Below the pieces are notes generated by a model. The model made no database searches. It was given only the letters and a program-made list of their open reading frames with translations, and had not been told where the DNA came from. The position numbers and the translations under genes are program-made. From Nostoc commune NIES-4072 (GTDB lineage Bacteria > Cyanobacteriota > Cyanobacteriia > Cyanobacteriales > Nostocaceae): DNA of 34,879 nucleotides. Below, piece after piece: positions 5,303 through 32,653 of the stretch. How positions within the stretch are numbered: position 1 is the stretch's first letter; every line of letters begins with the position of its first letter. Location of the stretch: contig NZ_BDUD01000008.1 of assembly GCF_003113895.1 (NCBI RefSeq), positions 1 through 34,879 on the forward strand, read 5' to 3'.

Positions 5303-8300
5303 TTAAGAAGCACGGCAAGATACAGGGTTTTGCCATGAACCATGAGGTGTGCTGGGTGCATTCGCTGTAAGTTCCAACTCCCCTTTTGCATTCATCACCC
5401 ACCCAGTAGCTTCCACAATCGGTTTTGGTGTAGCAGTAGGTTTGATGGTAACAGGTGGACTCTTGCTGTTTCTGGTGCTGGGATTAAGAGTAATCAAATC
5501 TACTTGCACTGCATCAGTGTTGAGGGCATCGCCTGGGTTAGGTGGCAAGCCGCCGCGTCCAGTGATTGTAAAACTGCTCTTAGCTAAATTTCCACCAGCT
5601 TGACAGGTCTGTGCTACTTGGGTGTCAACTGGTATCGTTGGCAGGTTGACTAAGCCACTGTTAGGGTCAATATCCGGCGTGTTAAGTTCTACAGTACCGT
5701 TTACACCAAATTCAGAACTAGCGGTAATATCACTCAGAGAAGTTGGGTTAGAGCGGGGTTGAATGCCATAGATACCAATGGCTCGAATATCTACTCTTCC
5801 ACCACTGCCTGTGTAAGCATTAGCAGTGATGTCGCTATTTTCGCTTGGGACAGCAACAATGAAACCCGACGGGGCATCAATATTAATGTTGCCACCATTA
5901 CCACCAGTTAGGGCTGTGCCTGCGGTGGTGGTAATTTGAGCGCCACGACGCAGAAGGAGTAAATCAGTTTGTATGTTGATGTCGCCACCATTTCCCGATT
6001 CAGATTGGGCGTTGAGTGTGCCACCGTTATCTAAAGTAACTCTAGGTGAGGTAACGATAATATCTCCAGCAGTACCTATTGGACTTTGGGAGTTAACGAA
6101 CAAGCCACTGGTAAAGTTGGCACTCTTGCCAGAAATAGTAAGAAAATCAGCAGCATTAACTTTGATTACACCTGCATTGCCTTGTCCAAGGGTTGAGGCA
6201 TTAAGTCGAGCGCCATCTTGTAACGAGAAAGAACCGGAGTCAATAGTAATACTACCCCCATTGCCAACTGTGCCCGTTTCCACGAAGCTGCCAATTCCAC
6301 TAACAAAACCGTTTTTCCCCCCAAAAATATCAACAGCACCAGTAACATTAACATTGACATTCCCCGCATCCCCCCGTCCTGCTGGCGCTGTTGCAGATGC
6401 TTCACGAGTACTGGTTACCAATTGAGCGCCATTAATTAATGATAGTGTTGCCGCATTGATGTCGATATTGCCACCTTTACCTACACCCCCAGATTCCACC
6501 GTGCTGAAGATATAAGCATTATCTGCAAGAGAAACAGCATTTCTTGCACGTACTGTCACATTCCCCGCATTTCCTTGTCCACGGGTTTCGGCAGTAAGTT
6601 CAGCGCGATCTGCTAACGACAAAGAACCAGAATCGATAGTAATATTACCCCCATTGCCAACTGTTCCAGTTTCCACCCTGCTGCGAATCCCACTAGCAAA
6701 ACCATTTTTCTCTCCAGTAATATTAACAGCACCAGTAACATTAACATTGACATTCCCCGCATCCCCGCGTCCTGCTGGCTGGTTCCCAGATGCGCCGCGA
6801 GTAATGGTTGCTAATTGAGCGCCATCAAGAAGTGATAATGTTGCCGCATTGATATCGATATTGCCACCTTTACCTACACCCCCAGATTCCACCGTGCCGA
6901 AGATATAAGCATTATCTGTAAGGAAAACAGCATTTCTTGCACGTACTGTCACATTCCCTGCATTCCCTTGTCCACCGCTTGAGGCAGAAAGTTGAGCGCG
7001 ATTGCGTAACGAGAAAGAACCAGAGTCAATAGTAATAGTACCCCCATTGCCAACTATTCCAGTTTCCACGAAGCTGGCAATCCCACTAACAAAACCGTTT
7101 TTCTCCCCAGCAATATCAACAGCGCCAGAGACTTTCACATTAACATTCCCCGCATCCCCCCGTCCTGGTGGCTGGTTCCTAAATGCACCGCGAGTAGCGG
7201 TTAGCAGTTGAGCACCATCAGTTAGTGATAGTGTTGCCGCATTGATGTCGATATTGCCACCTTTACCGACACCCCCAGATTCCACCGTGCCGAAGATATA
7301 AGCATTATCTGTAAGAGAAACAGCATTTCTTGCACGTACTGTCACATTCCCTGCATTCCCAAGTCCCGAAGTTGAGGCAGTAAGTTCAGCACCATTGCTT
7401 AACGACAAAGAACCGGAGTCAATAGTGATATTACCCCCATTGCCAACTGTTCCAGTTTCTACGCTGCTGTAAATCCCACTCAATAAACCATTTTTCTCCC
7501 CAGCAATATCAACAGCACCAGTAACATTAACATTGACATTCCCTGCATCCCCGCGTCCTGGTGGCTGGTTCCCAGATGCACCGCGAGTAATGGTTAGCAA
7601 TTGAACGCCATCAGTTAGTGATAGTGTTGCCGCATTGATGTCGATATTGCCACCTTTACCGACACCCCCTGATTCCACCGTGCTGAAGATATAAGCATTA
7701 TTTGCAAGAGAAACAGCATTTCTTGCACGTACTGTCACATTCCCCGCATTCCCAAGTCCCGAAGTTGAGGCTTCAAGTTGTGCGCGATCGCCTAACGAGA
7801 AAGAACCGGAGTCAATAGTAATATCACCCCCATTGCCAACAGCCCCAGTTCCCACGAAGCTGGCAATCCCACTCAATAAACCATTTTTCTCCCCAGCAAT
7901 GTCAACAGCACCAGTAACATTAACATTGACATTCCCCGCATCCCCACGTCCTGGTGGCTGGTTCCCAGATGCATCGCGAGTAAGGGTTAGCAATTGAGCG
8001 CTATCAAGAAGTGATAGTGTTGCCGCATTGATGTCGATATTGCCACCTTTACCGACACCCCCTGATTCCACCGTGCTTAAGATACTAGCATCTGCAAGGG
8101 AAACAGTATTTCTTGCACGTACTGTCACATTCCCCGCATTCCCAAGTCCCGAAGTTGAGGCAGAAAGAGAAGCGCGATCTGATAATGACAAAGAACCGGA
8201 GTCAATAGTAATATTACCCCCATTGCCAACAGTCCCAGTTCCCACACTGCTTAAAATCCCACTCAATAAACCATTTTTCTCCCCAGCAATGTCAACAGCA

Positions 8301-9634
8301 CCAGTAACATTAACATTGACATTCCCCGCATCCCCACGTCCTGGTGGCTGGTTCCCAGATGCATCGCGAGTAAGGGTTAGCAATTGAGCGCTATCAAGAA
8401 GTGATAGTGTTGCCGCATTGATGTCGATATTGCCACCTTTACCGACACCCCCTGATTCCACCGTGCTTAAGATATTAGCATCTGCAAGGGAAACAGTATT
8501 TCTTGCACGTACTGTGATATTCCCCGCATTCCCAAGTCCCGAAGTTGAGGCAGCAAGAAAAGCATCATCTCGTAATGAGAAAGAACCGGAGTCAATAGTA
8601 ATATTACCCCCATTGCCAAGTGACCCCAAACGCACATTATTAACAACTAGGCTCCCACCTGCAACTTTGATTTCCCCAGTAGCATTAAGCGTAATATCTC
8701 CTGAAACAGTTTCAGGCACCCCTAAACCTTGTCCAATCCCAGCACTTAGGAAACTTCTCTCTATCTCTATATTCCTGGCATTGACTGCAATATTACCGCC
8801 ACCAGCCCCAGTTACAATTACGTATGAACTATTAGTTAGGGATACCGAAGTTCGCCCAACATTCTCAGGAAATCTCAAGCTGAGACTATCGCCATCTACA
8901 CCCAGCGCTACACTACCAGCTTGGGCCAATCCTCCTAACTCAACACGCCCGCCATTGGCATTTAATTCTCCCCCATCCATGCTGACATTCCCACCCACCA
9001 GCAGTAAACTCTTACCATCTGGTACTCGTAAACCAAATGCATCAAAGCCTGCTGGATCTATTCCTGCAAATGCAATTGAGTTATTTTGAATCACTGCGTT
9101 TTGATTAATCTGATTAAACAGCAATGCTGAAGGATTAATAGTCAACAACGGTGAAGGGATATTTTTCTCAGTAGCGCTAAAAAATCCAATATTTCCAAAT
9201 TGCAGTGCGTTCGCTGTAGTCGCTACAAAGGAACCACCAATATTTAGCGAAGCATTTTGACCAAAAATAATCCCCGACGGATTAATCAGAAACAAATTAG
9301 CTGTGCCGTTAGCGCGAATTAATCCATCAATATTAGAACCTGACCCACCCGTAACTCGACTAATGATATTTTGAATATCTACAGCATTATTAAAAGAAGC
9401 AGTGCCACCAATAGGCACAGAAAACTCGCCAAAGCTGTGAAACAAGTTACCACCAGATTGCGTTCCTCCAGTTATATTGAGGGTGTTGCCATCTGGTGTA
9501 ACGATGGAATTATTAGGCAAGGTGCTATCTGGGGTAATTTGGGCAAAGACATGCTCTTGCAAAGAAGCAACTAACACGCCTCCCATCACCAAACTAGTAC
9601 ACCAACGCCGCAAATCTTGAGTTATTCCTGACAT
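5303..9634 (-). CDS. Two-partner-secretion exoprotein / filamentous haemagglutinin-type adhesin (TpsA)
   Basis: From the ATG at 9634 (GGGGAG just upstream) the protein has 1443 residues. An alternative upstream start would add 71 residues with no signal-like character. A Sec signal (WCTSLVMGGVLVASLQEHVFA) precedes the TPS domain, with the hallmarks GGNLFHSFGEFSV, NIISRVTGG and LINPSGIIFGQNASLNIGGSF. TPS proteins cross the outer membrane through a TpsB pore and fold as a right-handed beta-helix. Six tandem ~130-residue repeats follow (GNAGNVTVRARN..., GGVGKGGNIDINAATLSL..., GRGDAGNVNVNVTGAVDI). The C-terminus (ATGWVMNAKGELELTA) is typical of cyanobacterial members. No TpsB gene is in the window. 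Likely roles are surface adhesion or cell contact; a toxin tip is not apparent. Confidence 0.9.
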   Translation of the reverse strand: MSGITQDLRRWCTSLVMGGVLVASLQEHVFAQITPDSTLPNNSIVTPDGNTLNITGGTQSGGNLFHSFGEFSVPIGGTASFNNAVDIQNIISRVTGGSGSNIDGLIRANGTANLFLINPSGIIFGQNASLNIGGSFVATTANALQFGNIGFFSATEKNIPSPLLTINPSALLFNQINQNAVIQNNSIAFAGIDPAGFDAFGLRVPDGKSLLLVGGNVSMDGGELNANGGRVELGGLAQAGSVALGVDGDSLSLRFPENVGRTSVSLTNSSYVIVTGAGGGNIAVNARNIEIERSFLSAGIGQGLGVPETVSGDITLNATGEIKVAGGSLVVNNVRLGSLGNGGNITIDSGSFSLRDDAFLAASTSGLGNAGNITVRARNTVSLADANILSTVESGGVGKGGNIDINAATLSLLDSAQLLTLTRDASGNQPPGRGDAGNVNVNVTGAVDIAGEKNGLLSGILSSVGTGTVGNGGNITIDSGSLSLSDRASLSASTSGLGNAGNVTVRARNTVSLADASILSTVESGGVGKGGNIDINAATLSLLDSAQLLTLTRDASGNQPPGRGDAGNVNVNVTGAVDIAGEKNGLLSGIASFVGTGAVGNGGDITIDSGSFSLGDRAQLEASTSGLGNAGNVTVRARNAVSLANNAYIFSTVESGGVGKGGNIDINAATLSLTDGVQLLTITRGASGNQPPGRGDAGNVNVNVTGAVDIAGEKNGLLSGIYSSVETGTVGNGGNITIDSGSLSLSNGAELTASTSGLGNAGNVTVRARNAVSLTDNAYIFGTVESGGVGKGGNIDINAATLSLTDGAQLLTATRGAFRNQPPGRGDAGNVNVKVSGAVDIAGEKNGFVSGIASFVETGIVGNGGTITIDSGSFSLRNRAQLSASSGGQGNAGNVTVRARNAVFLTDNAYIFGTVESGGVGKGGNIDINAATLSLLDGAQLATITRGASGNQPAGRGDAGNVNVNVTGAVNITGEKNGFASGIRSRVETGTVGNGGNITIDSGSLSLADRAELTAETRGQGNAGNVTVRARNAVSLADNAYIFSTVESGGVGKGGNIDINAATLSLINGAQLVTSTREASATAPAGRGDAGNVNVNVTGAVDIFGGKNGFVSGIGSFVETGTVGNGGSITIDSGSFSLQDGARLNASTLGQGNAGVIKVNAADFLTISGKSANFTSGLFVNSQSPIGTAGDIIVTSPRVTLDNGGTLNAQSESGNGGDINIQTDLLLLRRGAQITTTAGTALTGGNGGNINIDAPSGFIVAVPSENSDITANAYTGSGGRVDIRAIGIYGIQPRSNPTSLSDITASSEFGVNGTVELNTPDIDPNSGLVNLPTIPVDTQVAQTCQAGGNLAKSSFTITGRGGLPPNPGDALNTDAVQVDLITLNPSTRNSKSPPVTIKPTATPKPIVEATGWVMNAKGELELTANAPSTPHGSWQNPVSCRAS
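6231..8612. repeat. Six tandem 390/393-bp coding repeats in the adhesin gene
   Basis: The anchor sequence CC(A/G)TTTTTC recurs at 8271, 7881, 7488, 7095, 6702 and 6309, giving a period of 390 or 393 bp. The 3-bp difference is one codon in the (N)NAYIFSTV versus ANILSTV segment. A long stretch around 7890-8075 is repeated essentially unchanged around 8280-8465, which indicates recent duplication or gene conversion. Confidence 0.88.
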
Positions 9635-10274
9635 ATCACTCCCCAATAAATTCACCGTGTGGCTAGTCTTTTTTCCCGACGTTGTAATACTGTGAAATGG
9701 GCTTCCCAGCAATGTTTTGCAGCAAACTGCATTGAATTGAATTAACCCAATTATTTTATCAAAGCCCCTTTGATTGATTTGGCACTCCAAAAGGGGAGCT
9801 AACTTTGCTATCTTTAGCTCTGGCTTAATCAGGCGAGTTTTATGCAAAAGGGAATTATTTTTACAAGACTTTACATAATGAAATGCTCAATTTCACTACT
9901 GAGAAATCCGGGTAGCGAGTCAGGTTAACGGCAAAAGAATACAGCTTGAAACGCGATGGCGTTTGCGATGGTTATCAGAACTGTGGTTCTGGTAAGCCAA
10001 ATTCTCATAAGTAAAAAAAGGATGGCTCGTGCCACCCGTTGACCTATTAAAAAGCTTACTCAGGAGTATTTTGGCAGGTCGATTAGGGAACAATGCCCGA
10101 CTGAATCTTCTCCATGTCTTCAAATTTCCATGCTTCATTAACGACTGAGGAATAGTCAAGATAACCAAGCATTGAACCTTAATTAATTTGGGGAGAAGGT
10201 CAAAAGCGTTAGATGAATATGACTTAGAAACCACCACTCCCCGACTAAATCCTTTCGCTCTCCTCACCAATACA
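9635..10274. other. 640-bp intergenic region between adhesin and response regulator
   Basis: It should contain the adhesin promoter. A 120-codon open frame on the minus strand (9920-10282) begins in the regulator's last codons, but its product is rich in Arg, His and Ser with no domain pattern. I do not count it as a gene. Inverted HIP1-like words (AACGCGATGGCGTTTGCG) lie near 9950. No other structure was seen. Confidence 0.4.
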
Positions 10275-10946
10275 TCATTCATTCATAATCAAGTTATAGT
10301 CGATATAACCAAGCATCGCCCCTCTTTTTATCGCCTCATAACGGTTCTTGACGTGCCATTTACTGTACAAATCGCTGGCATAATGTTTGACTGTACTAAC
10401 AGAGAGAAACATTTCTCTGGCAATCTGTTCAAAAACTAAACCCTGAGCCAGTAATCGCAGGACTTGTATTTGCCGCTCGGTGGGAGAGTCAAGCAAGTTT
10501 TTGTCAGCAAAACTAGGGTCGATATATCTGTTTTGATAAAGGCTTTCTAACAGTTTTTTAGCCAGCTTCGGGTCAAGTAGACATTCATTAAAGTAAGCTC
10601 TCTTGATGGCTAGTTCAATCAATTCTATATCAGCACTTTTGAGCATATAAGAATCAGCCCCATGACGGAAAGCTGAGTTAATAAAGTCTGAATGAGTTTG
10701 ATTAGTAAAAATAACTACTTTACTATTAGTATCCCTTTTAATTGAACGAGTAAGTTCTAGACCACTCATATCGGGCAATAGTAAATCAACTAACACAACA
10801 TCAGGATTCATCTGTTCAATTAACTGAAACCCTAGTTTTCCACTGGTAGCATCACCAGTTACTTCTATATCTGGGGATTGTGAAATAGCGCCTTTGATGC
10901 CTAAAAGAGTGAATATTTCTGGTTCAACAATTACTATTCTCAGCAT
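10275..10946 (-). CDS. NarL/LuxR-type response regulator
   Basis: The N-terminal receiver domain (1-~125) carries phospho-acceptor Asp54 (VLVDLLLPDMSG), Thr81 (VIFTN) and Lys103 (YMLKSAD). The acidic pair near residues 8-9 is Glu-Pro rather than Asp-Asp, so metal binding or phosphorylation may be altered. The C-terminal LuxR/GerE helix-turn-helix (~150-212, LLDSPTERQIQVLRLLAQG ... SVSTVKHYASDLYSKW) binds DNA as a dimer. No histidine kinase is nearby, so it is an orphan regulator. It lies downstream of the large actin/ATPase operon on the same strand, across a 220-bp gap packed with GTGTCY hexamers that could be its targets. Start: ATG with AGAGGA eleven bases upstream. Confidence 0.88.
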   Translation of the reverse strand: MLRIVIVEPEIFTLLGIKGAISQSPDIEVTGDATSGKLGFQLIEQMNPDVVLVDLLLPDMSGLELTRSIKRDTNSKVVIFTNQTHSDFINSAFRHGADSYMLKSADIELIELAIKRAYFNECLLDPKLAKKLLESLYQNRYIDPSFADKNLLDSPTERQIQVLRLLAQGLVFEQIAREMFLSVSTVKHYASDLYSKWHVKNRYEAIKRGAMLGYIDYNLIMNE

Positions 10947-11170: not shown

Positions 11171-13015
11171 CTAAATTTGATTGAGCTTGATAACACCCTC
11201 GCCTATCCAGTCCGCCAATCCTGCCCCCACAATTTCATACATCCAGCCCTTGATTTGCTCAACAGTAAATCTTTCACCAGCTACTTTAAAGTTGCCCTTG
11301 AACTCTCTTACATCAGCTTCAATTCGTTCAGTTCTGGTGAGATATTCATACAGTTTTTGCGCCATTGTTGATAGTTTTTTCGGTTCATCTTGGGTGTCAC
11401 CTGCTTTGTTACCAAGATTGAATTCCAGTTCATAGATCCGCTCTAAAGTAGCTTTATCGATGGTTGGCGGTTCATTACTGGTCAAAGGTTTATCAAACCG
11501 AAAATCAATTCGCTTGTGGTCGAGTTTAGGCAGTTCAATATCAATCCATTGCCCATGCCCAGGTAGTTTAATCTTGCCCTGACCGCTAGCTTTGGCTTCT
11601 GTCGTAATTGGGTCAATAGTTGCGATTAGTTCTACTTCTAACAGTGCCGCATCTCGAAGTTTTGATAACCCTTTAGCTTTGGCTAAAATCTCCATTGTGC
11701 GGTCGTGAGCTACGAACAAAGGAATCATTAATTGTTTGCGAGATTCAGTCATGGCACAGCGAAACCATTTACCAATAAAATCAGGGTCGGGCTTCCATTT
11801 TTCATCCTCACAATCGTCTGGCATTGGCTCAACAATGTTATCTGTCCAAGTTGTAAACTCCTCAGCGACTACACAGAAATGTTGGTTTGTGTCTCTTAAG
11901 TGTTGCGTCCATTGCTCCTCAACCATTCCACTTTCACGATAGGCTTTGTAACGGCGGCGCATTTCCGCCATGTACCATTGCATGAAGTCAGCTATCTCTC
12001 TGTAGCCAGTAATCAAATTCACCCCCCGCCATTCAACTTCTGTTCCGTGAGGGTCAAGTACAAAGATTTGATTCCAACCGGCTTGACGCTTATGCCAGAT
12101 AATCTCTCTGGTAGTCCAGGATTTCCCAGCACCCATGCCACCAAATATCAAAGTGGGGTAGCCGATGGTGTTGTTGATCCAGCGATATTTGTCACTAGGG
12201 GCAATTGCTTGGCTGTCTGCCCCAGTAACCTTGTCGTTGGGGTCAATCGTCCCTTGCAAAGTCTGACTCCCTTGTAGGTAAGGCGTTTTCATCTCGCGCA
12301 ACTGCTTAATGTAATCTGCCTTCTGTTGCTCGGTCATGCCTGCGGTTTGCGCCTCAAAGATAGCGTCGGATGCCTCCATTTGGGTAACTTCAATCTCAGT
12401 GTGGGCGTAAATCTCCGCTTTTTGGATATCCACAGTGCGATCATTGGCTATCAAATCTAAATCGGCTTGTAGTTGGACTTCTGCGATCGCAACGTCTCGG
12501 CAACTCTCTAGTAGCTCGGAACGTGCGGCCATCTCTGCCTTTGCTGCGTCCCGTTTTTGGGCGATGTCTTCAAAAACTGCTCTCTGCTTCTCCTCATTTT
12601 GACAATGGCGGAGCATCCACCCCGCAAGCGCAAACCCCAGGAATCCCCCAAACGCCCAAAACGCTTTATATGGGTTAGTCGCTTTCACCAGTCCGTTTAC
12701 CCCCATCGCTGGGTCACGCACAATCTGAGTGGGCATCCCTTCTAGCTTCCATTGCTCCCAGTAATAGGGGGTCATGCGGAATGGTCTGTTATTCTTGTCC
12801 TGACATACCAATTTTTTCTGGGGAGTCCGAAGGCAGAAATAAATGCGGTCGCTTGATTCCCCTTTCCAAGCCATTGCCGCAGAGCTAATTCCCACAGTTA
12901 AACTTAGCCCAATTGCAACAGCTTTTTTATCCATCGGCAACTGTCCGAACCACTTCATTAAACCCGATTGTTGCGACTCGGATAACTGTTTATGTTTCTC
13001 AGATAGATAGTTCAT
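11171..13015 (-). CDS. Membrane-anchored FtsK/VirD4-like DNA-translocation ATPase
   Basis: Two hydrophobic segments (~31-49 and ~119-136) anchor the N-terminus, and a charged helical region (~140-245) follows. The P-loop ATPase core has Walker A GGMGAGKS (292-299) and a Walker B-like FCVVAEEF (380-387). The C-terminal ~90 residues (KLYEYLTRTERIEADVREF ... FTVEQIKGWMYEIV) look like a winged helix, as in the DNA-reading end of FtsK. The order resembles conjugative coupling proteins and FtsK-type pumps. It is the last gene of a nine-gene operon starting with a ParM-like actin, and it overlaps the upstream membrane-protein gene by ATGA. It may push plasmid DNA across or along a membrane during segregation or transfer. 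AGGA seven bases upstream supports the start. Confidence 0.78.
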   Translation of the reverse strand: MNYLSEKHKQLSESQQSGLMKWFGQLPMDKKAVAIGLSLTVGISSAAMAWKGESSDRIYFCLRTPQKKLVCQDKNNRPFRMTPYYWEQWKLEGMPTQIVRDPAMGVNGLVKATNPYKAFWAFGGFLGFALAGWMLRHCQNEEKQRAVFEDIAQKRDAAKAEMAARSELLESCRDVAIAEVQLQADLDLIANDRTVDIQKAEIYAHTEIEVTQMEASDAIFEAQTAGMTEQQKADYIKQLREMKTPYLQGSQTLQGTIDPNDKVTGADSQAIAPSDKYRWINNTIGYPTLIFGGMGAGKSWTTREIIWHKRQAGWNQIFVLDPHGTEVEWRGVNLITGYREIADFMQWYMAEMRRRYKAYRESGMVEEQWTQHLRDTNQHFCVVAEEFTTWTDNIVEPMPDDCEDEKWKPDPDFIGKWFRCAMTESRKQLMIPLFVAHDRTMEILAKAKGLSKLRDAALLEVELIATIDPITTEAKASGQGKIKLPGHGQWIDIELPKLDHKRIDFRFDKPLTSNEPPTIDKATLERIYELEFNLGNKAGDTQDEPKKLSTMAQKLYEYLTRTERIEADVREFKGNFKVAGERFTVEQIKGWMYEIVGAGLADWIGEGVIKLNQI

Positions 13016-13560
13016 TTACTTTTCCTACCACCAAATATAAAAATCATTAATATCGCTAGAAATATGCCCACTCCTGCACCATCCATCCAACTTGAAGATT
13101 CAGCAGTTTTTGGCTGATACACCTTTTCAATTGAAGTATTAGCTGTTTGTGTGGAAGTTCTCGCTTCATTCCATTCACTAATCGGTTCGGAAAGCGCACA
13201 CAATAACGCACATGAAGCACTGCAACCAGTCATTAAATTAGTGACAAAATTATTAAACCCTTCACCTGTTGCAGTGGCAGTAAAATACAGGTGTGCAGTG
13301 CCAACAGCTAGGAACATTCCAACTGGGTGAACTTGCAATAGATGAAAGGTAAAAATAACAGCACTGTTTAAGCAACTGCCAGCGACAATTTCACAAGCAT
13401 TACCAGCACGTCTAAATGTTCTACCTCTGTTATTTTCTGGTAATGGTTGTGGTTGTTCGGGTTGTTGATGCTGCTTAGTTGATTGTGGTGTTTGTGCCAG
13501 CCCTTCATGCAAAAAAGGGCTGACGCTATGAGGATCTTCATTTCGTTTCCTTACTAGCAT
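13012..13560 (-). CDS. Small integral membrane protein of the actin-ATPase operon
   Basis: I do not recognise this 182-residue protein as a named family. The first ~50 residues are hydrophilic and Gln/Pro-rich (QQPEQPQPLPEN). Hydrophobic segments follow at ~60-95 (SAVIFTFHLLQVHPVGMFLAVGTAHLYF) and ~108-125 (NLMTGCSASCALLCAL), with a final TM helix just before the C-terminus (GVGIFLAILMIFIFGG). Its cysteines (CEIVAGSC, CSASCALLC) and three or so membrane spans suggest a channel or anchor subunit. It overlaps the ATPase gene by four bases, so the two are probably made together and may form a complex in the membrane, much as VirB10-type proteins hold a coupling ATPase. That role is inferred from position only. 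Confidence 0.68.
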   Translation of the reverse strand: MLVRKRNEDPHSVSPFLHEGLAQTPQSTKQHQQPEQPQPLPENNRGRTFRRAGNACEIVAGSCLNSAVIFTFHLLQVHPVGMFLAVGTAHLYFTATATGEGFNNFVTNLMTGCSASCALLCALSEPISEWNEARTSTQTANTSIEKVYQPKTAESSSWMDGAGVGIFLAILMIFIFGGRKSK

Positions 13561-13584
13561 CAGCCTTATCCTTTTAACTAATAG

Positions 13585-14301
13585 TTATCTCTCGCCCAAT
13601 TTGTTCCACAAGTTACCCAACATTGCACCCCAACCGCGAACTGTTCCCGTTGCTGAAACACTAGATGCTGGTGCAGAAGTTTGGCTAGTAACTGGTATCA
13701 CTTCTTGGGGGGCTTGATTGGGTTCTAATGCCCTTGAGCCGTACCGCGCACGGGCTAACAATTGTTGGCGTTTCTCTCTCAGCCCTGTTGTGATTGCTTG
13801 TCTCTCTGCTTGTACAACTTGCCTGTTTTCTATACTGCTAATCTTGTTTTCATGCCGCCACAATTCTGCTTGTAGATCATGGTGTAATTGGGCTGCAACT
13901 TCGGCTAGTCCGTGCTTACGTTTTTGGTCAATTCGCAGCAAGTCGGCTCTATCTTGGGCATCTATTTTACTCATCTCCGAATCGAACTCGGAATTAAGTT
14001 TGCGAATTTTGGCGATAGCACCCGCAACATGAGAGCCATATTGTTTACGAAGTTCGACCCAGGTGACTTGCCCTTTTGTTAACTTCTCCATCGCCTCAAA
14101 GACGACCTTGGCATTGTCCAAAAATGGCTCTAGTCTGTCAGATAATTCTTGGGCATTATTCGCATAATCAGCAAACTGTTCGAGCTTATTTATATCAGAG
14201 AGATAACCCAAAATATCAGACTCAAATCCTCCCCAAGATTGTGCTTTCTCGTCGATATGCGAACTATGACCAACTACAGGATTACGTATTGCAAAGTCCA
14301 T
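13585..14301 (-). CDS. Coiled-coil protein of the actin-ATPase operon
   Basis: This hypothetical protein of 238 residues is almost entirely predicted helix. Residues ~35-190 are rich in Glu, Lys, Gln and Ala, with long heptad-like stretches (EKLTKGQVTWVELRKQYG; AIAKIRKLNSEFDSEM; AELWRHENKISSIENRQ). A Ser/Thr/Pro linker (~200-220) leads to a short amphipathic end (GWGAMLGNLWNKLGE). A scaffold, tether or DNA/filament-binding role would fit. The start has a clear AGGAG eight bases upstream. It lies 24 bp before the membrane-protein gene and 11 bp after the preceding gene in the same operon. Confidence 0.65.
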   Translation of the reverse strand: MDFAIRNPVVGHSSHIDEKAQSWGGFESDILGYLSDINKLEQFADYANNAQELSDRLEPFLDNAKVVFEAMEKLTKGQVTWVELRKQYGSHVAGAIAKIRKLNSEFDSEMSKIDAQDRADLLRIDQKRKHGLAEVAAQLHHDLQAELWRHENKISSIENRQVVQAERQAITTGLREKRQQLLARARYGSRALEPNQAPQEVIPVTSQTSAPASSVSATGTVRGWGAMLGNLWNKLGER

Positions 14302-14312
14302 TGCGTTATCTC

Positions 14313-14756
14313 CTAATAAGGTATTAAGTCGTAGTTGATCTCACTCGACTCTTGGGGCAATTCATCCCAGTAACCCATCTCTTCAAATCGGCTATAAATT
14401 CTCGTTGCTAATTGCCGTATTGGATCATCAAAATCTTCAGAAATTAAATCAAATCTGTTGGAGCCAAACGCCAAGATATTTGCAATATCCGGGTCAATAC
14501 CATTACCCAAGAATTGACCAAATGCAGCAGAGTATGGATGGTCATCAATGGTTGAATGAGTTGCTAGAAATTCCGTCCCGGTAAAGGGTGGGTAATCTTC
14601 ACTCTCGAATATTGGTGTGTCAAGTGCCTCAATATCCGCCTCAATCATTGCGGCCCATTGTTCAGGATTTTCCGCTTTGAATTGCTCTAATCTCAAAGCG
14701 CGGTCAGTCAGAGGTGATTTGCCCCAATCGTTGGGATTTTTGTAATCAAGTGCCAT
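14313..14756 (-). CDS. Hypothetical acidic protein of the actin-ATPase operon
   Basis: I do not recognise this protein. I start it at the ATG at 14756 (MALDYKNPNDWGK), because AAGGA lies about nine bases upstream; a start at 14855 would add 33 residues and overlap the preceding gene by ATGA. The 147-residue product is acidic, rich in Asp, Glu, Phe and Tyr, with motifs such as NPEQWAAMIEADIEAL and EEMGYWDELPQESSEINYD. It has no membrane segment. It is in the middle of the operon and may be an accessory cytoplasmic factor. Confidence 0.58.
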   Translation of the reverse strand: MALDYKNPNDWGKSPLTDRALRLEQFKAENPEQWAAMIEADIEALDTPIFESEDYPPFTGTEFLATHSTIDDHPYSAAFGQFLGNGIDPDIANILAFGSNRFDLISEDFDDPIRQLATRIYSRFEEMGYWDELPQESSEINYDLIPY

Positions 14757-14854
14757 GCTGTTAAGATCCTTATGTACTTTTCGTTTTGCGGCGAGAGATA
14801 CGTCCCCTAGTGAGGCGATTGCAATGATTGGTAGTCGGTGCAATCGCTTCATCA

Positions 14855-15049
14855 TCAGTTTTCACAAAACTCAACAAGTTCAAAAACCTCCCTCTGCACT
14901 TGGTTTTGGTTTAATTCTTTGCGTCTGCCTTTGGAGTCATTGAAAATGAAAGGTGCATTGACTCTAGAATTAGAAAGGTGGCTATAGCGCAGTTGTTGAC
15001 CACGGAATTGGTACAAATGATTACGCTGTAAGGCTGTCGTTGAAAGCAT
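14855..15049 (-). CDS. Small basic hypothetical protein of the actin-ATPase operon
   Basis: The 64-residue product from the ATG at 15049 (GAGGG nine bases upstream; an alternative ATG is at 15064) is hydrophilic and has a strand-rich pattern: HLYQFRGQQLRYSHLSNSR, then APFIFNDSKGRRKELNQNQV and a C-terminal helix REVFELVE. The alternation looks like real protein rather than a shadow frame. Its 5' end overlaps the preceding gene by about 29 bp, consistent with coupled translation. The fold and function are not recognised. Confidence 0.5.
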   Translation of the reverse strand: MLSTTALQRNHLYQFRGQQLRYSHLSNSRVNAPFIFNDSKGRRKELNQNQVQREVFELVEFCEN

Positions 15050-15296
15050 AAGCTTGTCCCTCAACTTGAGAGTAGAACTCGATATTTAGAATCGCTTCGT
15101 GAATCTCCATCAAAGCTTGCACAGCATCCCCCAGACGCAGGTCATTCGATGTACTGAACCGCTCGGAAGCTTCGATTTGTTGATAATTTGGGGATGCTTG
15201 CACGAACCTTAAAGTCTGTTCGCAACCGAGGATGATGGTCATTATTTCGGTTGTTGTTAAGCTTGGTTGTGTTTGCACAGTGTCTTGGTCGCTCAT
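15021..15296 (-). CDS. Small helical hypothetical protein of the actin-ATPase operon
   Basis: This acidic 91-residue protein of unknown function has two or three predicted helices (TTEIMTIILGCEQTLRFVQ; LRLGDAVQALMEIHEAILNIEFY). It has no membrane segment. Its start overlaps the stop of the upstream membrane gene as ATGA, which argues that it is genuinely translated as part of the operon. Confidence 0.6.
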   Translation of the reverse strand: MSDQDTVQTQPSLTTTEIMTIILGCEQTLRFVQASPNYQQIEASERFSTSNDLRLGDAVQALMEIHEAILNIEFYSQVEGQAYAFNDSLTA

Positions 15297-15538
15297 GACT
15301 TCCTTCCTTTTCTTTGGGTTTTCATCGGTGTGGGTTGGGGTTCTGGCTGATTACTTGGGGCTTCTGGCTGACTCGGCTTTTGAAGTACATAGCTGATAGC
15401 CCCTGCACCTCCCACAGCTGCGGCGATGGTAAACATATTGTTTCTGCCAAGCTGCTGGACTCCGAAGTAGCCAACGGAGATCGCTGCTGCTGTTGCTCCA
15501 ATGCCTAAAACCGTGTTTCTGAATGTGGATTTGGTCAT
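15293..15538 (-). CDS. Small membrane protein with Pro/Gln-rich tail
   Basis: The 81-residue protein has a hydrophobic segment (VLGIGATAAAISVGYFGVQQL, ~10-30), a second Gly/Ala-rich hydrophobic stretch (FTIAAAVGGAGAISYVL, ~36-52), and a Pro/Gln-rich basic tail (PEAPSNQPEPQPTPMK). Two short membrane spans with a flexible tail suit a small membrane subunit. It overlaps both neighbours by ATGA, so translation is coupled. No named family is recognised. Confidence 0.6.
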   Translation of the reverse strand: MTKSTFRNTVLGIGATAAAISVGYFGVQQLGRNNMFTIAAAVGGAGAISYVLQKPSQPEAPSNQPEPQPTPMKTQRKGRKS

Positions 15539-15768
15539 GCTGCCCCCTTGAAATTAGTGACCATTGCGCTAAGTGCCGATTTATTGGGCTGTGTAGATGT
15601 TGCTGTTTCGGGTTTTGGTGATGTTTGTACATTGCCGTGTTGAAAAATCAGCTTCTCTACACCTGCCGATAATGCTTGTGTCGGTGCATCTTGGGGTAAA
15701 TCAAAAATCTTGCACAATTCAATTACTGCTAGATAGGAAATGGTTATACGCCGAGATTCGTAATTCAT
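15535..15768 (-). CDS. Small operon protein after the actin gene, possible filament adaptor
   Basis: The 77-residue protein has an N-terminal portion (SRRITISYLAVIELCKIFDLP ... ALSAGVEKLIF) compatible with a small helical or strand-helix-helix DNA-binding fold, then a Thr/Pro/Ser-rich tail. It directly follows the ParM-like gene (3-bp gap), the place where ParR-type adaptors sit in ParMRC loci. That makes an adaptor role attractive, but the sequence alone does not prove it. It overlaps the next gene by ATGA. Confidence 0.52.
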   Translation of the reverse strand: MNYESRRITISYLAVIELCKIFDLPQDAPTQALSAGVEKLIFQHGNVQTSPKPETATSTQPNKSALSAMVTNFKGAA

Positions 15769-15771
15769 TGA

Positions 15772-16887
15772 TTAGGCTCCTCTTGCAATTTGAGTTAATA
15801 GCTTTAACCCCAAGGCATTGATAAATTGGGGATTGTTCAAAATAACAAAGCCTAAACCGGCTAAGTTTTGATCCACCACTGGCTGCGAAACACCCCCACC
15901 CCAGGCGACAAGATATTTAGCGCGGTCTAGATAATTGCCAGCAGTCACAAAGTTGGCGAATTTCTCAATTCTGTTACTCCACCATTCGTCTAGACACTGG
16001 CTGTACTCTGCCTCAAACTTCTTACCTGTCAGGTGGTTGCCTCCATAAGTAAAAGTGCCTTCAATAATCCCTTGGTTAACGAGACTGGGTGAGTGCTTCA
16101 CATCCTTGGACAGCAGACTTACTCGGTCGTTTCGTTTGTCGAGAGCTTCTGCAATCATGGTATGCAGTTCACCGCAACCACCCTCTATCAGGTGACGGTC
16201 AATCACTGCACCGCTACCGTTGAACACGGTAATCAACCAAGTTGATGAACCGATATCAAGTGCGATCGCTAATTCTGAGGGGTCAAGTACTAGGGATGCT
16301 TCACCGAATAAGCAGTGGGCAATGCTTCCAAATCCTTCGGGATAAATGCCTGTGACTACAATTTCAACTGTCTTAGTGACAATAGAACGAGTTACAGGAT
16401 GCAGATGCTCAAAGGTGTGAGTCCCTTCTACTCGGCGTTTAATTTCATCTGCCCAGCGTTCTGGGTTGTGATTGCTCAAACTAATCGAAAGTTTGACTCC
16501 ATCGGGAATATTCAGAACTGCTAAGTCTGCAAGGATGCTTTCTAATGCCAGTTCTGCCTTTTTCGCCTTATCTTCGTGTAACAGGGTGTGGTCACTTTGC
16601 GCTAGAGCCGCACTGCCCCAAAAGAATTGAACATCTTTTAAGTCAAGCCGCGTTCCTTCGACATACCGCACCCATGCCCCATCTTTAGATATGGTTTCGT
16701 GGTGCATGATGTTGCGGTTGCGAACAAGTGAGTATGCGGCAGGCATCATGATCGAAAAATCACCAATGATTGCCTTGCCATACCCTGCACCTGAGTCTTT
16801 TCCGGCGATAAGGTCAGTTAGCCCTGATTGGGCTAACAAGTCTGCTTGAACTAGCCAGTTTTTGGCATTGGTGTATGTGGTTGTCAT
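15772..16887 (-). CDS. ParM/Alp-like actin ATPase, plasmid segregation filament protein
   Basis: The 371-residue protein shows actin-fold nucleotide-binding motifs: phosphate-1-like KDSGAGYGKAI (Asp31, Gly33, Lys38), phosphate-2 ALDIGSSTW (Asp211) and an adenosine motif AWGGGVSQ (~328-335). Length and order match plasmid actins of the ParM/StbA/Alp group, which polymerise with ATP to push plasmid copies apart. The Asp-x-Gly of phosphate-1 sits unusually far from the N-terminus (~30 residues of extra lead). It begins a nine-gene operon ending in an FtsK/TraD-like ATPase, which is not a standard ParMRC arrangement. The divergent intergenic region holds palindromes that could be its centromere. 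There is no strong Shine-Dalgarno. Confidence 0.8.
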   Translation of the reverse strand: MTTTYTNAKNWLVQADLLAQSGLTDLIAGKDSGAGYGKAIIGDFSIMMPAAYSLVRNRNIMHHETISKDGAWVRYVEGTRLDLKDVQFFWGSAALAQSDHTLLHEDKAKKAELALESILADLAVLNIPDGVKLSISLSNHNPERWADEIKRRVEGTHTFEHLHPVTRSIVTKTVEIVVTGIYPEGFGSIAHCLFGEASLVLDPSELAIALDIGSSTWLITVFNGSGAVIDRHLIEGGCGELHTMIAEALDKRNDRVSLLSKDVKHSPSLVNQGIIEGTFTYGGNHLTGKKFEAEYSQCLDEWWSNRIEKFANFVTAGNYLDRAKYLVAWGGGVSQPVVDQNLAGLGFVILNNPQFINALGLKLLTQIARGA

Positions 16888-17040
16888 GGTTCTGATGATT
16901 GGTAAAAGTCTTGATTTTTCTGGCTTGGTGTTGATTTTTAGGCAAATCTAGACAAATCCAGATATCCAGTTAGGGGCAAGCCATAGCATCACTTTCTGGC
17001 TTCTATTGCCTTTGTTGGGTGGCTGTTTTTGGCTTGCCTG

Positions 17041-17112
17041 TTAGTGCTATATTAGCACTAACAGCACTAATAGTGCAAATAACATCAGAGGTGTTATTAG
17101 TGTTTTAAGTGC
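17041..17112. promoter_or_regulatory. TTAGTGC palindromes: candidate centromere or RHH operator
   Basis: TTAGTGCTA (17041-17049) and TAGCACTAA (17053-17061) form an inverted repeat with a 3-bp spacer. GCACTA and TAGTGC (17064-17076) form a second one with a 1-bp spacer. A further TTAAGTGC lies at 17105-17112. Four close half-sites between the divergent ParM-like operon and an RHH gene fit a parC-like centromere that doubles as an operator. Confidence 0.6.
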
Positions 17113-17148: not shown

Positions 17149-17361
17149 ATGCTGTATACAGCAATTAGTTCTGAATTAATGGCACGACCGCGAATTACAC
17201 TTACCGTGTCTGATGACGTTTATCAGTATCTTAATGAGTGGGCAGACCGAGAAGAACGACCATTAGCTAATCTTGCAGCTTACTTGCTAAGTCAAGCTGT
17301 TAGAGAACATCAAGAACAGAATGAATCTGCCAAACCAAAAAAAGGTGAGGGTACAGCATGA
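17149..17361 (+). CDS. Ribbon-helix-helix (CopG/ParR-like) DNA-binding protein
   Basis: Residues ~11-55 match the RHH pattern: a basic strand (MARPRITLTV), then SDDVYQYLNEWADREERPLANLAAYLLSQAVREHQ. Such dimers bind short palindromes. GGAGAG eight bases upstream favours the ATG at 17149; starting at the internal ATG (17179, MARPRITL) would give the more usual N-terminus of this family. It is divergent from the actin operon, with the TTAGTGC palindromes between them, so it probably represses both directions and may act as the ParR-like partner of the actin. Confidence 0.75.
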   Translation: MLYTAISSELMARPRITLTVSDDVYQYLNEWADREERPLANLAAYLLSQAVREHQEQNESAKPKKGEGTA

Positions 17362-25568: not shown

Positions 25569-25763
25569 TCGCCCCCAGTCTCTCGTTCTGCCTCCGTACA
25601 TACGTAGCACACGACACCTCGCATAACCCCGTATTTTGGCTTGAAGCCAGCCATGCCTCAAAGCTTACGCTTTGTCTCGCTGCGCTCGAACGGCAGACTG
25701 GTTCAAGTGGGGAAGCCCCCCTTGAAAAACCCCCCTCGCAATGTCCCTCAATCTTCTCGATTT

Positions 25764-26162
25764 ATGGCGAATCGCAAGCAGTCAAAAGCTCTAGTCCGAA
25801 AGCATATTTTCCCAGTCAGATTGAGCGACATCGAACTGGACTTGCTGCGAATAAAATCACTTGATGCAGGGATGTCAGCGAGTGAATTAATGAGGCGTAA
25901 TGCATTGATGCGTCCATTACCCAAACGACTGAGTAAAATTAGTCTACAAACATATTGGGAATTAGGACAAATTGGGAACAATCTAAACCAGCTTGTCAAA
26001 GCAACCAACACAGCACTCTTAGTTGGGCGAACTTTACCTACTGATCCAGAACTGCTAAGAGAACTTTTAGAACTGCTGCATCAGTGCAGACGAGACATTG
26101 CCTCGGATGATATTGAAGACGAAGATTCGGAAGAGGAAGAGGATGATTGGGAAGCAGACTAA
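25764..26162 (+). CDS. mobC: MobC-like mobilization accessory protein (RHH)
   Basis: From the ATG at 25764 the product is 132 residues. An RHH-type N-terminal half (KHIFPVRLSDIELDLLRIKSLDAGMSASELMRRNAL) is followed by the MobC signature region (YWELGQIGNNLNQLVKATN) and an acidic tail (DIEDEDSEEEEDDWE). MobC proteins bind oriT and help the relaxase melt and nick DNA. The frame stays open upstream to 25641, but that stretch reads like a translated genomic repeat, so I exclude it. The relaxase start lies inside its 3' end with a 20-bp overlap, as in many mob operons. Confidence 0.82.
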   Translation: MANRKQSKALVRKHIFPVRLSDIELDLLRIKSLDAGMSASELMRRNALMRPLPKRLSKISLQTYWELGQIGNNLNQLVKATNTALLVGRTLPTDPELLRELLELLHQCRRDIASDDIEDEDSEEEEDDWEAD

Positions 26163-27672
26163 AGGCAGAGGTTTTCGCAAGCTGCTAGATTATTTAGAAT
26201 CGCGCGAAGATGCTAAACTAATCGGCGGCAATATGAGCGGGAGAAATGCCCGTGAATTGGCGCGGGAATTTAAGCTGTCTCGACAACTAAATTCTGATGC
26301 AGACCGAGTTGTTTATCATGTTTCTCTATCAGCAGCCAAGGGCGACAAATTAGATGATGAAAAGTGGAGCGAGATTGGCTCACGCTACATGAAGGAAATG
26401 GGTTTTGATGCCAATCAGTTTGTCATCTTCCGCCACCATAACACCGACGACGACCACATCCACATTGCAGCCAGCCGAATCAGGATGGACACGGGGCTAG
26501 TAGTGCATGATTCCTGGGATTATGTACGCTCTGAGAAAGTTCTGCGGCAGATTGAAATTGATTATGATTTGGTGCAAGTGCAAGGCAGTAGAGAGAAACT
26601 TCAGCGCACACCCAGCACCGGACAAATTAGACGCATAAGGCGAGAGCAAGAAGAATTTTCACAGGGACAACGTGACTCTCCTCCACAACGCATCATCAAA
26701 GAGTCAGTTCAGCAGACAATTGACAGAGCCGGAGTTGATAATCCCCAAATGCCAACGCTGATCATGCGCTTGCAGCAAGCTGGCATTAGTGTCAGAACAG
26801 GATTTACCAGAAATGGGAAGTCTAAAGGCATTTCTTATGAGAAAGATGGGCAAGCTTTTAGTGGTACACAGTTAGGGGCAGCTTATACCTTCCCTGGTTT
26901 GCAAAAACATCTTGGCGTTGACTACCAAACAGAACGCGATGATGAACCTATTCATGAATTGCTGCTCAAACCTGTTAAACCACGAAGAGTTGAGCAGTTA
27001 GAAAAACTCTTTCAAGAAATTGAACGCAAACAACAGCCTCAGTTCACCCCACCACCAGAGGATAAAGTTGTTTGGCAAGTGTTGCACAAGTACTTAAGCG
27101 AGAAACGCTATATACCAGATTATATTGTGCAAGGATTACATAATAATCAGTTGCTTTACATGGATGAGCAACGAAATATTTTGTTTATCAAGCGTGATTT
27201 AGATGGTGAAAAAACTGGCGCATTAGTTTGGTCAAAGCCTAGAGAAAATCATTGCACTGTGGAGTACGACCAAAACACCTCTACACCTTATGGTTGGTTT
27301 TATTTGAGATTAGGAGGGCAACCAAAGTCCAAGGTAGAAAACGTCTTTTTGTGTTCTACACCAATTGATGCAATGTCAGCAGCCACCTACCTGATTTCAA
27401 GTTGCAAAGGGCTACCACCAACTAGAACCATGTTGATAGTAGCTGATGACCCGAATAACCTACCTATGGAATTTCTCAAGAGTTTCAATAGGGTTGTCGT
27501 AGCATTCAATAATGATCAAGAAGGGAATAACGCAGCTAGTGCAGTATTGGAATTGTTGCCAATTGGTAAAAGGCTCAAAACCCATAATCCTGATTGGAGT
27601 CAGGAATTAGAAGCTCATCTCAGGGAGGAGCAACAAAAGCTCTTACAGCAGGATCGTGGTTTTAGTCTGTGA
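26143..27672 (+). CDS. Relaxase / mobilization nuclease with C-terminal TOPRIM-like domain
   Basis: I take the ATG at 26143 (MIGKQTKGRGFRKLLDYLE), which has GGAAGAGG just upstream; the open frame begins earlier inside mobC. The 509-residue product shows motif I with the likely nucleophile Tyr17 (LLDYL) and the three-His motif III (FRHHNTDDDHIHI: His98/99, His105, His107) of pfam03432-type MobP/MobV relaxases. These nick oriT and stay on the 5' end. The C-terminal part (~from residue 300) contains LCSTPIDAMSAATYL and VVVAFNNDQEGN, resembling the DUF3991/TOPRIM region found in such relaxases, though the usual TOPRIM Glu appears to be Ser. No VirB-type genes are present, so transfer would need a helper. 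Confidence 0.88.
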   Translation: MIGKQTKGRGFRKLLDYLESREDAKLIGGNMSGRNARELAREFKLSRQLNSDADRVVYHVSLSAAKGDKLDDEKWSEIGSRYMKEMGFDANQFVIFRHHNTDDDHIHIAASRIRMDTGLVVHDSWDYVRSEKVLRQIEIDYDLVQVQGSREKLQRTPSTGQIRRIRREQEEFSQGQRDSPPQRIIKESVQQTIDRAGVDNPQMPTLIMRLQQAGISVRTGFTRNGKSKGISYEKDGQAFSGTQLGAAYTFPGLQKHLGVDYQTERDDEPIHELLLKPVKPRRVEQLEKLFQEIERKQQPQFTPPPEDKVVWQVLHKYLSEKRYIPDYIVQGLHNNQLLYMDEQRNILFIKRDLDGEKTGALVWSKPRENHCTVEYDQNTSTPYGWFYLRLGGQPKSKVENVFLCSTPIDAMSAATYLISSCKGLPPTRTMLIVADDPNNLPMEFLKSFNRVVVAFNNDQEGNNAASAVLELLPIGKRLKTHNPDWSQELEAHLREEQQKLLQQDRGFSL

Positions 27673-31775: not shown

Positions 31776-32048
31776 TTATGGTTTTCTTGCTTTCTGGCTT
31801 TCTGGTTCTCCAAACTTTTGAGTTAGCGCTTCAACAATAACTGAGGTTACAGTAATCCCTTGCTCTTTAGCTTTAGACATCCAGTAGCGACGTTGGGATA
31901 TAGGGACTTTGACACACAGATTGACCATCTGTTCAAGCTCTGGCTCTTGTGATGGTAAACCAGATGTCTGGTCTGATGTATTTATGGCTTTCTGGTTTTC
32001 TGGTTCTGTTTCTCTGGCTTTTTTAATCAAATCACCGTACTTGCTCAT
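31776..32048 (-). CDS. Partition partner of ParA (RHH protein)
   Basis: The 90-residue protein has a hydrophilic N-terminus (~1-40), then an RHH-type domain (MVNLCVKVPISQRRYWMSKAKEQGITVTSVIVEALTQKF) similar to the small ParB-type partners of short plasmid ParA proteins. The start overlaps the parA stop as ATGA, showing translational coupling. It would bind the centromere and stimulate ParA ATPase through its N-terminal tail. Octamer repeats of TTTCTGGT lie at both ends of its own coding sequence and upstream of parA. Confidence 0.75.
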   Translation of the reverse strand: MSKYGDLIKKARETEPENQKAINTSDQTSGLPSQEPELEQMVNLCVKVPISQRRYWMSKAKEQGITVTSVIVEALTQKFGEPESQKARKP

Positions 32049-32653
32049 TTCAAAATCTCCATAACTTCTTTACCTAGCGCAAGGTAATCAGCCCAAGCTG
32101 TTTTTAAACGTGAGTCATCAACATCCCGAATAGGGACACCAGCCATTGCTGCTTTCTCAAAGCCGACAGTACGCCGGATCATTGCCTGAAATACGGGGAT
32201 GCCTCCATTCAACAAATCCTGACGCAGTGTTTCGCCTTCTCTGCTGGGATAGGGAGGAACAATAGTAAGCAAGCAGCGATAGTTTGTCTCACCCAAATCT
32301 TTCACCATCAATAGCATTGGCTCAAGGCTTACAATGTCCGGTTTTGTAGGCAGTATTAAAAGGTCGCAGCCTTTAGCTAATTCCTTTAGATCATCTGAGT
32401 CAGGTCTAGCTGGGGTGTCGATGACCACAAATTGAGCATCGGCAATTACCTTTAAGGCTTGACGTTCGTCCACCGCAGGAAAGGGGAATGACCCGCGTTT
32501 TGACCACGCCAGGGCGGTACGGTTCTGGTCGCCATCTACAAGAACTGTTTTACCAAGTTCACTAAAGAAAGTTGCAAGATGCACTGCTGTAGTGCTTTTT
32601 CCGACTCCTCCCTTGTATCCAGTGATCGTTACAATTTTCTTTTGACTGTCCAT
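32045..32653 (-). CDS. parA: ParA-family partition ATPase
   Basis: The 202-residue protein has the deviant Walker A KGGVGKST (13-20), DGDQNRTALAW (switch region), FVVIDTPARPD (Walker B) and ILPTKPDIVSLEP. The short length without an N-terminal helix-turn-helix defines a type Ib partition ATPase, which forms an ATP-dependent gradient on the nucleoid and moves plasmids. Because it has no HTH, the RHH partner would regulate the operon. The operon is minus-strand; CAGAAAAC octamers lie just upstream. No Shine-Dalgarno is evident. Confidence 0.92.
   Translation of the reverse strand: MDSQKKIVTITGYKGGVGKSTTAVHLATFFSELGKTVLVDGDQNRTALAWSKRGSFPFPAVDERQALKVIADAQFVVIDTPARPDSDDLKELAKGCDLLILPTKPDIVSLEPMLLMVKDLGETNYRCLLTIVPPYPSREGETLRQDLLNGGIPVFQAMIRRTVGFEKAAMAGVPIRDVDDSRLKTAWADYLALGKEVMEILK

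Follow-up and report, generated by a model that had tools for sequence, protein, structure and literature searches.

The window analysed here spans the whole of plasmid5, a circular 34,879-bp plasmid of Nostoc commune HK-02 (AP018331.1) that is contig C8 in a genome of 11 contigs. Its minus strand carries nine head-to-tail genes (g1–g9) at 11171..16887, all of which are labelled 'hypothetical protein' in AP018331.1. They run from a ParM-type actin to a membrane-anchored ATPase of the FtsK superfamily and may form a plasmid segregation locus. A divergent ParG-like gene, operator-like repeats, and a conserved element lie upstream of the actin. The features of the locus are as follows.

17149..17361, + strand: divergent ribbon-helix-helix (RHH) DNA-binding protein, ParG-like, 70 amino acids (aa) (PF07878 RHH_5, E=1.9e-15)
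17038..17112, no strand: operator-like repeats, with a perfect 12-nucleotide (nt) inverted repeat at 17038–17049 / 17053–17064 and further AGCACTAA-type copies
16978..17036, − strand: 59-bp conserved element, also in nine other fetched loci and each time upstream of the actin
15772..16887, − strand: g1, ParM-type actin, 371 aa (fold, phrog_691)
15535..15768, − strand: g2, putative ParR-like adaptor, 77 aa (position after the actin, co-variation with it)
15293..15538, − strand: g3, small hydrophobic protein, probably membrane-bound, 81 aa (membrane segments by eye)
15021..15296, − strand: g4, conserved small protein, 91 aa (phrog_31750, of unknown function, E=3.1e-18)
14855..15049, − strand: g5, conserved small protein, 64 aa (open reading frame (ORF) list; ratio of nonsynonymous to synonymous substitution rates, dN/dS; public record)
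14313..14756, − strand: g6, 147 aa as annotated (ORF list, public record)
13585..14301, − strand: g7, helical coiled-coil-like protein, 238 aa (no hydrophobic segment; coiled coil by eye)
13012..13560, − strand: g8, hydrophobic protein, 182 aa (two segments by hydropathy scan)
11171..13015, − strand: g9, membrane-anchored FtsK-superfamily ATPase, 614 aa (fold, hydropathy, profiles)

An earlier note on this DNA had described these genes as a single chain, and the chain is real: all nine lie on the minus strand, the public record agrees, and many other loci show the same arrangement and orientation. Their spacing is operon-like at the level of sequence. The actin stop is 3 nt from g2, ATGA overlaps join g2 to g3 (15535–15538), g3 to g4 (15293–15296), and g8 to g9 (13012–13015), g4 and g5 overlap by 29 nt, and gaps of 11 and 24 nt separate g6 from g7 and g7 from g8, respectively. 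The annotated start of g6 is 14756 (147 aa, likewise in the related locus L010), and the longest ORF (180 aa) begins at 14855. If the annotated start is correct, ~100 nt lie between g5 and g6, and the single-base overlap with g5 that the longest ORF would give is probably spurious. The ATGA overlaps from which translational coupling had been proposed are present at three junctions. Against L010, dN/dS is 0.05–0.26 over all nine genes, with g6 entered as the longer 180-aa ORF (actin 0.05, ATPase 0.07), which indicates purifying selection. Scans for promoters and terminators gave results at or below chance.

The actin, g1, has a ParM-type fold by fold comparison and matches the partition-protein profile phrog_691, and PDB sequence and profile searches with it returned no significant match. 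D31, G33, G35, K38, D211, G213, G330, and G331 are invariant in an alignment of 35 actin sequences; we take these to be the phosphate and adenosine motifs of the nucleotide site. Over all fetched loci, duplicates included, a short ORF begins −40 to +110 nt from the stop of 70/70 intact actin ORFs (66 distinct, 71–144 aa). When 'shared' is defined as at least 60% identity over at least 60% of the length, this next gene is shared in 167/172 locus pairs with actins at least 85% identical and in 0/1937 with actins <40% identical or unalignable, the pairs not being independent of one another. Many of the next-gene proteins have, by eye, an RHH-like N-terminal part and a short C-terminal peptide. 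From its position and co-variation we infer that g2 is a ParR-like adaptor inherited with the actin.

The gene at the ParG position is annotated as 'plasmid partition protein ParG' in L010, L011, L015, and L023, and, where a gene is annotated there at all, as 'hypothetical' in the remaining relatives inspected. The copy in L010 scores above the cut-off of the Pfam ParG family. The repeats at 17038–17112 are a candidate ParG site or part of a centromere, and the 59-bp element, present as a single copy in the window, is a candidate parC, leader or promoter element. At the gathering threshold the element has no Rfam match, nor does any Rfam family match anywhere in the window, and an RNA element was dropped on this basis. 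Counts of 7-mers upstream revealed, by eye, no iteron common across loci.

Among the small proteins between g2 and the ATPase, g3 gave weak matches to a TcpD domain (16 bits, cut-off 24) and, under the cut-off, to the major facilitator superfamily. The earlier proposal that at least two of the small proteins are membrane-bound agrees with the two segments flagged in g8 by hydropathy scan and with the g3 segments seen by eye. Several close relatives of g8 have three hydrophobic segments, and a hydrophobic protein lies upstream of the ATPase in most loci. The coiled-coil-like g7 is well conserved: its copies on the co-resident plasmids C9 and C7 are 95–96% identical, and its dN/dS is 0.05–0.08.

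The ATPase g9 consists of an anchor and coil (~1–265), a motor (~270–510), and a C-terminal part (~550–614) that is read as winged-helix-like, although Pfam finds nothing in the last 86 residues. The hydropathy scan flagged one N-terminal segment, and a second (~117–136) was picked out by eye. In a fold search the motor is nearest to TcpA and FtsK, which are tied, and g9 is a membrane-anchored FtsK-superfamily motor. Its matches to PF01935 and PF01580 are weak and under the cut-off. The type IV coupling protein (T4CP) profiles PF02534, PF10412, and PF12696 have no match to g9 at E≤1, HMMER discarding most matches above 0.1, and in a scan of nine g9 relatives only L059 matched PF10412 (E=0.011, under the cut-off). 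PDB sequence and profile searches with the ATPase found nothing significant, with TcpA at E=0.77. VirD4-type T4CPs are absent among the fold matches listed for g9, an absence that is no evidence against them. The ATPase had been called FtsK/TraD-like; the FtsK-superfamily fold and membrane anchor uphold an FtsK/HerA/TcpA-like protein, whereas TraD is not recovered at profile level. An N-terminal membrane anchor joined to an FtsK-superfamily motor is nevertheless a trait that g9 has in common with VirD4/TraD coupling proteins.

Rarity of the pairing in relatives would have spoken against the earlier note, but the linkage of actin and motor is conserved. Among 291 genomes of the order, an actin relative is found in 23 and an ATPase relative in 24, the host genome included. 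The actin-anchored loci comprise eight plasmid loci hand-chosen from 53 records and 35 from the 291-genome search, whose 41 places also included the window itself, two that are L013 and L019, and three unfetched partial matches. Of these 43 loci, 28 have a same-strand motor no more than 6 kb away, nine are on contigs that end early, three lack a motor, and three have broken actins, so that a motor is present in 28 of the 31 loci where the actin is intact and the contig long enough. A motor-anchored scan of species-level genomes gave 40 loci. The actin is present in 24 of the 31 that combine an ATPase ORF with at least 5 kb of upstream sequence. The gap between actin and ATPase is 2.1–3.1 kb across all 26 motor-anchored loci with an actin. 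As there are at most six actin or ATPase matches per multi-megabase genome, the recurrence of this order and strand is beyond chance. Genes in relatives were called with a simple script that takes the longest ORF, and some of the loci represent a single contig that bears two names. The named genera of the 40 motor-anchored loci, like the query itself, belong to the filamentous cyanobacteria.

The actin is not essential to this layout, a point on which the earlier note needs changing. Seven of the 31 motor-anchored loci lack it, and of these seven, five have a related two-gene helix-turn-helix (HTH) cassette (117–125 and 187–197 aa), one has a second HTH family, and one has neither. HTH genes likewise take the place of the actin in L014, L015, and L023. 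Given this recurrent replacement, the core of the operon is its membrane and motor part.

Comparison of plasmids also reveals exchange within the operon. Between the window and the co-resident C9, g4–g8 and the ATPase anchor are 83–96% identical, with actins at 26%, ParG-like proteins at 33%, and differing motors. The DNA homology of this pair covers 12220–15472, with one end inside g3 and the other just before the motor, and the N-terminal part and motor of the ATPase recombine near residue 265. Two plasmids of a second genome have ATPases that are 96% identical and actins that are 27% identical. In that genome, the homology of L026 and L043 begins at L026:1418 and the ParR-like ORF stops at 1421, placing the breakpoint at a module edge. 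In the second genome, C5, C10, and C11 have near-identical actin and g2 genes and a shared block of 91.5–95% DNA identity, and for two of them the actins are 97.6% and the g2 proteins 96.6% identical. Homology between co-resident plasmids starts at or near the 59-bp element; between C5 and C10 it is lost before the actin near this element and returns further upstream, and the unlike stretch contains a different ParG and different repeats. The DNA before the actin of C11 is unlike that of both, and no ParG was seen there.

The same pattern holds across 53 distinct loci, counted with six duplicates left out and in pairs that are not independent. Actins are <50% identical in 21/62 locus pairs with ATPases at least 85% identical over their full length, and ATPases are <50% identical or only partly alignable in 67/157 pairs with actins at least 85% identical. 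These breakpoints and swaps indicate at least four modules with no fixed actin–motor pair, which argues against one specific contact between actin and ATPase. The modules are (a) ParG and the operator repeats; (b) the 59-bp element, the actin, and the next gene; (c) the small proteins, the coiled-coil-like protein, the membrane protein, and the ATPase anchor; and (d) the motor. Hence, of the idea that the actin is wired to the pump, the conserved linkage survives, but the ParM/ParR-like pair is exchanged as one block and the genes downstream of it are retained.

The ParM fold, the ParG context, the linkage to a motor, the module exchange, the purifying selection, and the occurrence of the operon on a conjugative plasmid with its own T4CP and, in part, on a phage contig suggest a role in segregation. 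The operon is tentatively predicted to be a compound plasmid-maintenance (segregation) locus, a reading whose probability we place close to evenly balanced. Modules (a) and (b) would be its plasmid-specific part, with the ParR-like protein binding the plasmid and the ParM filament moving copies apart. Modules (c) and (d) would form a cytoplasmic-membrane complex, perhaps located at the septum in chain-forming cells, where the ATPase would pump or pull plasmid DNA and thereby clear copies into the correct daughter cell or keep them there. As the ParM cassette is replaceable by HTH-protein cassettes, the common function would be membrane handling of extrachromosomal DNA, with the two kinds of cassette serving as alternative ways to recognise or move it. 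It is more doubtful whether these loci represent a distinct class of machine for segregating replicons in filamentous cyanobacteria and their phages. A dedicated membrane-anchored pump for extrachromosomal DNA would there be driven or loaded by interchangeable ParM/ParR or HTH cassettes, with ParG/operator and the motor domain exchangeable too, and several plasmids in one cell would have a common membrane core but separate identities.

Several points weigh against segregation. The g2-type proteins tested match no Pfam or PDB profile, so that 'ParR' is an inferred name, and the upstream region showed none of the tandem repeats that are usual in parC. The second transmembrane segment and the C-terminal winged helix of g9 come from a low-confidence model, the septal location is speculation, and the top fold match of the motor is the coupling protein TcpA, though tied with FtsK. 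The near-identical actin and g2 genes on three co-resident plasmids are disfavoured by plain incompatibility, unless ParG and the operators give specificity. A ParA-family ATPase and an adjoining small gene lie at 32045–32653 of the window, and the plasmid may thus have a second segregation system; the operon may not be the only or main partition system of this plasmid. Relaxases are found in 12/14 hand-picked related plasmid records, as a transfer role would predict (PF03432 in seven, PF01076 in three with one overlap, and three more by annotation or typing). The L011 relative of g9 and several others are named 'type IV secretory system conjugative DNA transfer family protein' by NCBI.

The strongest competing explanation is a coupling role in conjugation. 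Here, a TcpA-like ATPase would pass the relaxase-bound plasmid to the type IV secretion system (T4SS) of another element, with ParM/ParR bringing the plasmid. The nearness of the motor fold to TcpA, the weak TcpD-like match of g3, the relaxases, and the naming of relatives speak for this, as do T4SS-type genes in the host genome and the precedent of R1, whose ParM physically interacts with TraI, TraD, and TraC and so connects a partition actin to a coupling ATPase (PMC4949242). The genes in the host genome (G000) are two VirB10-like/presumed VirB4-like sets on contig C2, at 227362–237114 and 449457–454848 (L133–L135, L137, L138, L078), one of which includes a T4CP-like gene. The C2 ATPases are related to the presumed VirB4 of a conjugative plasmid, which was assigned by its position near TrbL-/TrbI-type genes and not by a VirB4 profile. 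PF03135 misses the presumed VirB4 genes, and the suggestion from a negative PF03135 search that the host lacks a T4SS was dropped in view of the VirB10-like and T4CP-like genes on C2. The window itself encodes a NikA/MobC-like protein and a MobA/VirD2-type relaxase (25641–27672), and the plasmid is probably mobilisable.

Other observations make this coupling role less likely than segregation. The relaxase genes of the window are 8.7 kb from the operon, and g9 matches no canonical T4CP profile. The conjugative plasmid of L018 carries relaxase, T4CP, and T4SS genes, ParAB, and a second ParM together with a divergent version of the operon, and its T4CP matches PF02534, PF10412, and PF12696, all at E≤2.3e-17. 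The strength of this comparison is reduced as the L018 ATPase is of a divergent type in which the hydropathy scan flagged no hydrophobic segment. No relaxase was found by PF03432, PF01076 or MOB typing on the 39-kb plasmid of L019, which has the operon. MOB-typed shares of 32/53 actin records and 33/45 ATPase records are similar to a crude ParA baseline of 1214/1766, drawn mostly from other taxa. Close to a terminase gene (phrog E=3.9e-117), phage contig L127 carries genes for a ParG-like, an HTH-like, and a hydrophobic protein and for a motor, but no actin, and this actin-less version weighs against a coupling role because a phage needs no conjugation coupling protein. The phage motor may serve something else, a point that counts against segregation. 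Hence, the dedicated transfer role entertained in the earlier note is not borne out, given the canonical T4CP beside the divergent operon in L018 and the phage version. ORFs of the same lengths as the L127 cassette occur in phage contigs L124–L126 and L130, likewise close to a large terminase gene, the profile scan for the terminase having covered L127; L126 and L130 end before the ParG position. Phage records have no actin or g4 match, and viral contigs have no actin relative. A phage packaging ATPase was rejected as the identity of the motor since the viral contig has its own terminase. A further motor relative, at 7896–9314 of L129, has neighbours that look by eye like ParA, a MobA/MobL-type relaxase, and a TraG-like ATPase, and L129 is possibly a plasmid from outside cyanobacteria.

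The remaining alternatives are less probable still. It is quite improbable that the operon holds two independent systems, a ParM/ParR pair and a membrane ATPase module for entry exclusion, defence or phage/plasmid competition. The modules recombine freely, each is found without the other, and the motor domain is exchanged, all of which this explanation would accommodate. In a defence-library scan, g9 gave weak partial matches to mad8 (E=1.4e-5) and HerA (E=0.0013) over the P-loop stretch, and PDB titles place HerA-type ATPases in anti-phage complexes. However, a PADLOC scan of the operon proteins at E≤0.1 recognised no defence partner, with no match for g2–g6, g8, the actin or ParG and weak Cas13d coiled-coil-type matches for g7, and actin and motor stay linked across many families of cyanobacteria in spite of recombination, which points to a common task. 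Least probable is a septum-crossing transfer of double-stranded DNA resembling that of TraB/Spd, in which plasmid copies would be pumped between trichome neighbours. A membrane-anchored motor of FtsK type accompanied by small hydrophobic proteins would suit such transfer, as would the filamentous genera of the motor loci, but the likeness to Streptomyces TraB/Spd is a presumed one, no channel component was identified among the proteins, and neither the phage occurrence nor the relaxases require it. The query also comes from filamentous cyanobacteria, which are plasmid-rich, and this too counts against the septal explanation.

Directly downstream of the operon is one further feature:

10275..10946, LuxR-type response regulator, − strand, probably not a component of the machine

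This regulator is also annotated in L010 and L015 and lies inside a 92% identical block in L045. A large protein annotated as filamentous hemagglutinin-like (5303–9847) contains a 393-bp repeat in 6.2 copies (6192–8619). A deaminase-like protein of the MafB19-deam family adjoins an Imm1 immunity protein at 150–1279, forming a toxin-immunity-like pair. A 23S rRNA intervening-sequence/bAvd-like protein (34417–34812) is beside a DDE transposase (33226–34413).

The putative segregation locus resembles several known systems in part. Like ParMRC systems (R1 ParM, Alp7A, pCBH ParM), it has an actin fold, a short co-varying ORF in the ParR position, and an RHH protein with operator-like repeats upstream. 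Unlike them, it runs on for seven more genes to a membrane-anchored FtsK-type motor, and its ParR and parC are putative. Partition and transfer in R1 are separate systems, whereas actin and motor share one operon here. The motor fold is as near to TcpA of pCW3 as to FtsK. With FtsK/SpoIIIE and HerA the locus shares a membrane-anchored RecA-type motor, consistent with the weak PF01935 and PF01580 matches, but g9 is a plasmid gene with a short anchor and long coil and a motor that is exchanged as a module. FcmB/FcmC are a related chromosomal actin pair of filamentous cyanobacteria with a role in cell shape (PMC12645912), and the available text of that paper on FcmB/FcmC does not contain the word 'FtsK'. 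The Nostoc actin differs from these, and from CorM of Anabaena, in being plasmid-borne with ParG and a motor operon; a literature search on CorM/CorR gave nothing relevant. A study of cyanobacterial plasmid replication proteins describes several plasmids that coexist without incompatibility, and the text available does not mention 'ParM' (PMC10899382). No description of a conserved operon joining a partition actin to a membrane DNA translocase was found among the papers listed in searches of the open PMC literature.

Both partition actins and membrane DNA translocases are familiar, and what appears to be new here is their conserved operon and its modular exchange. The locus is a natural system in which to probe the link between partition actin and coupling ATPase reported for R1. 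If the segregation reading is correct, filamentous cyanobacteria with multiple plasmids would sort many related plasmids by plugging plasmid-specific cassettes into a common membrane pump. It would also account for finding one and the same core next to actins that agree at only about one residue in four.

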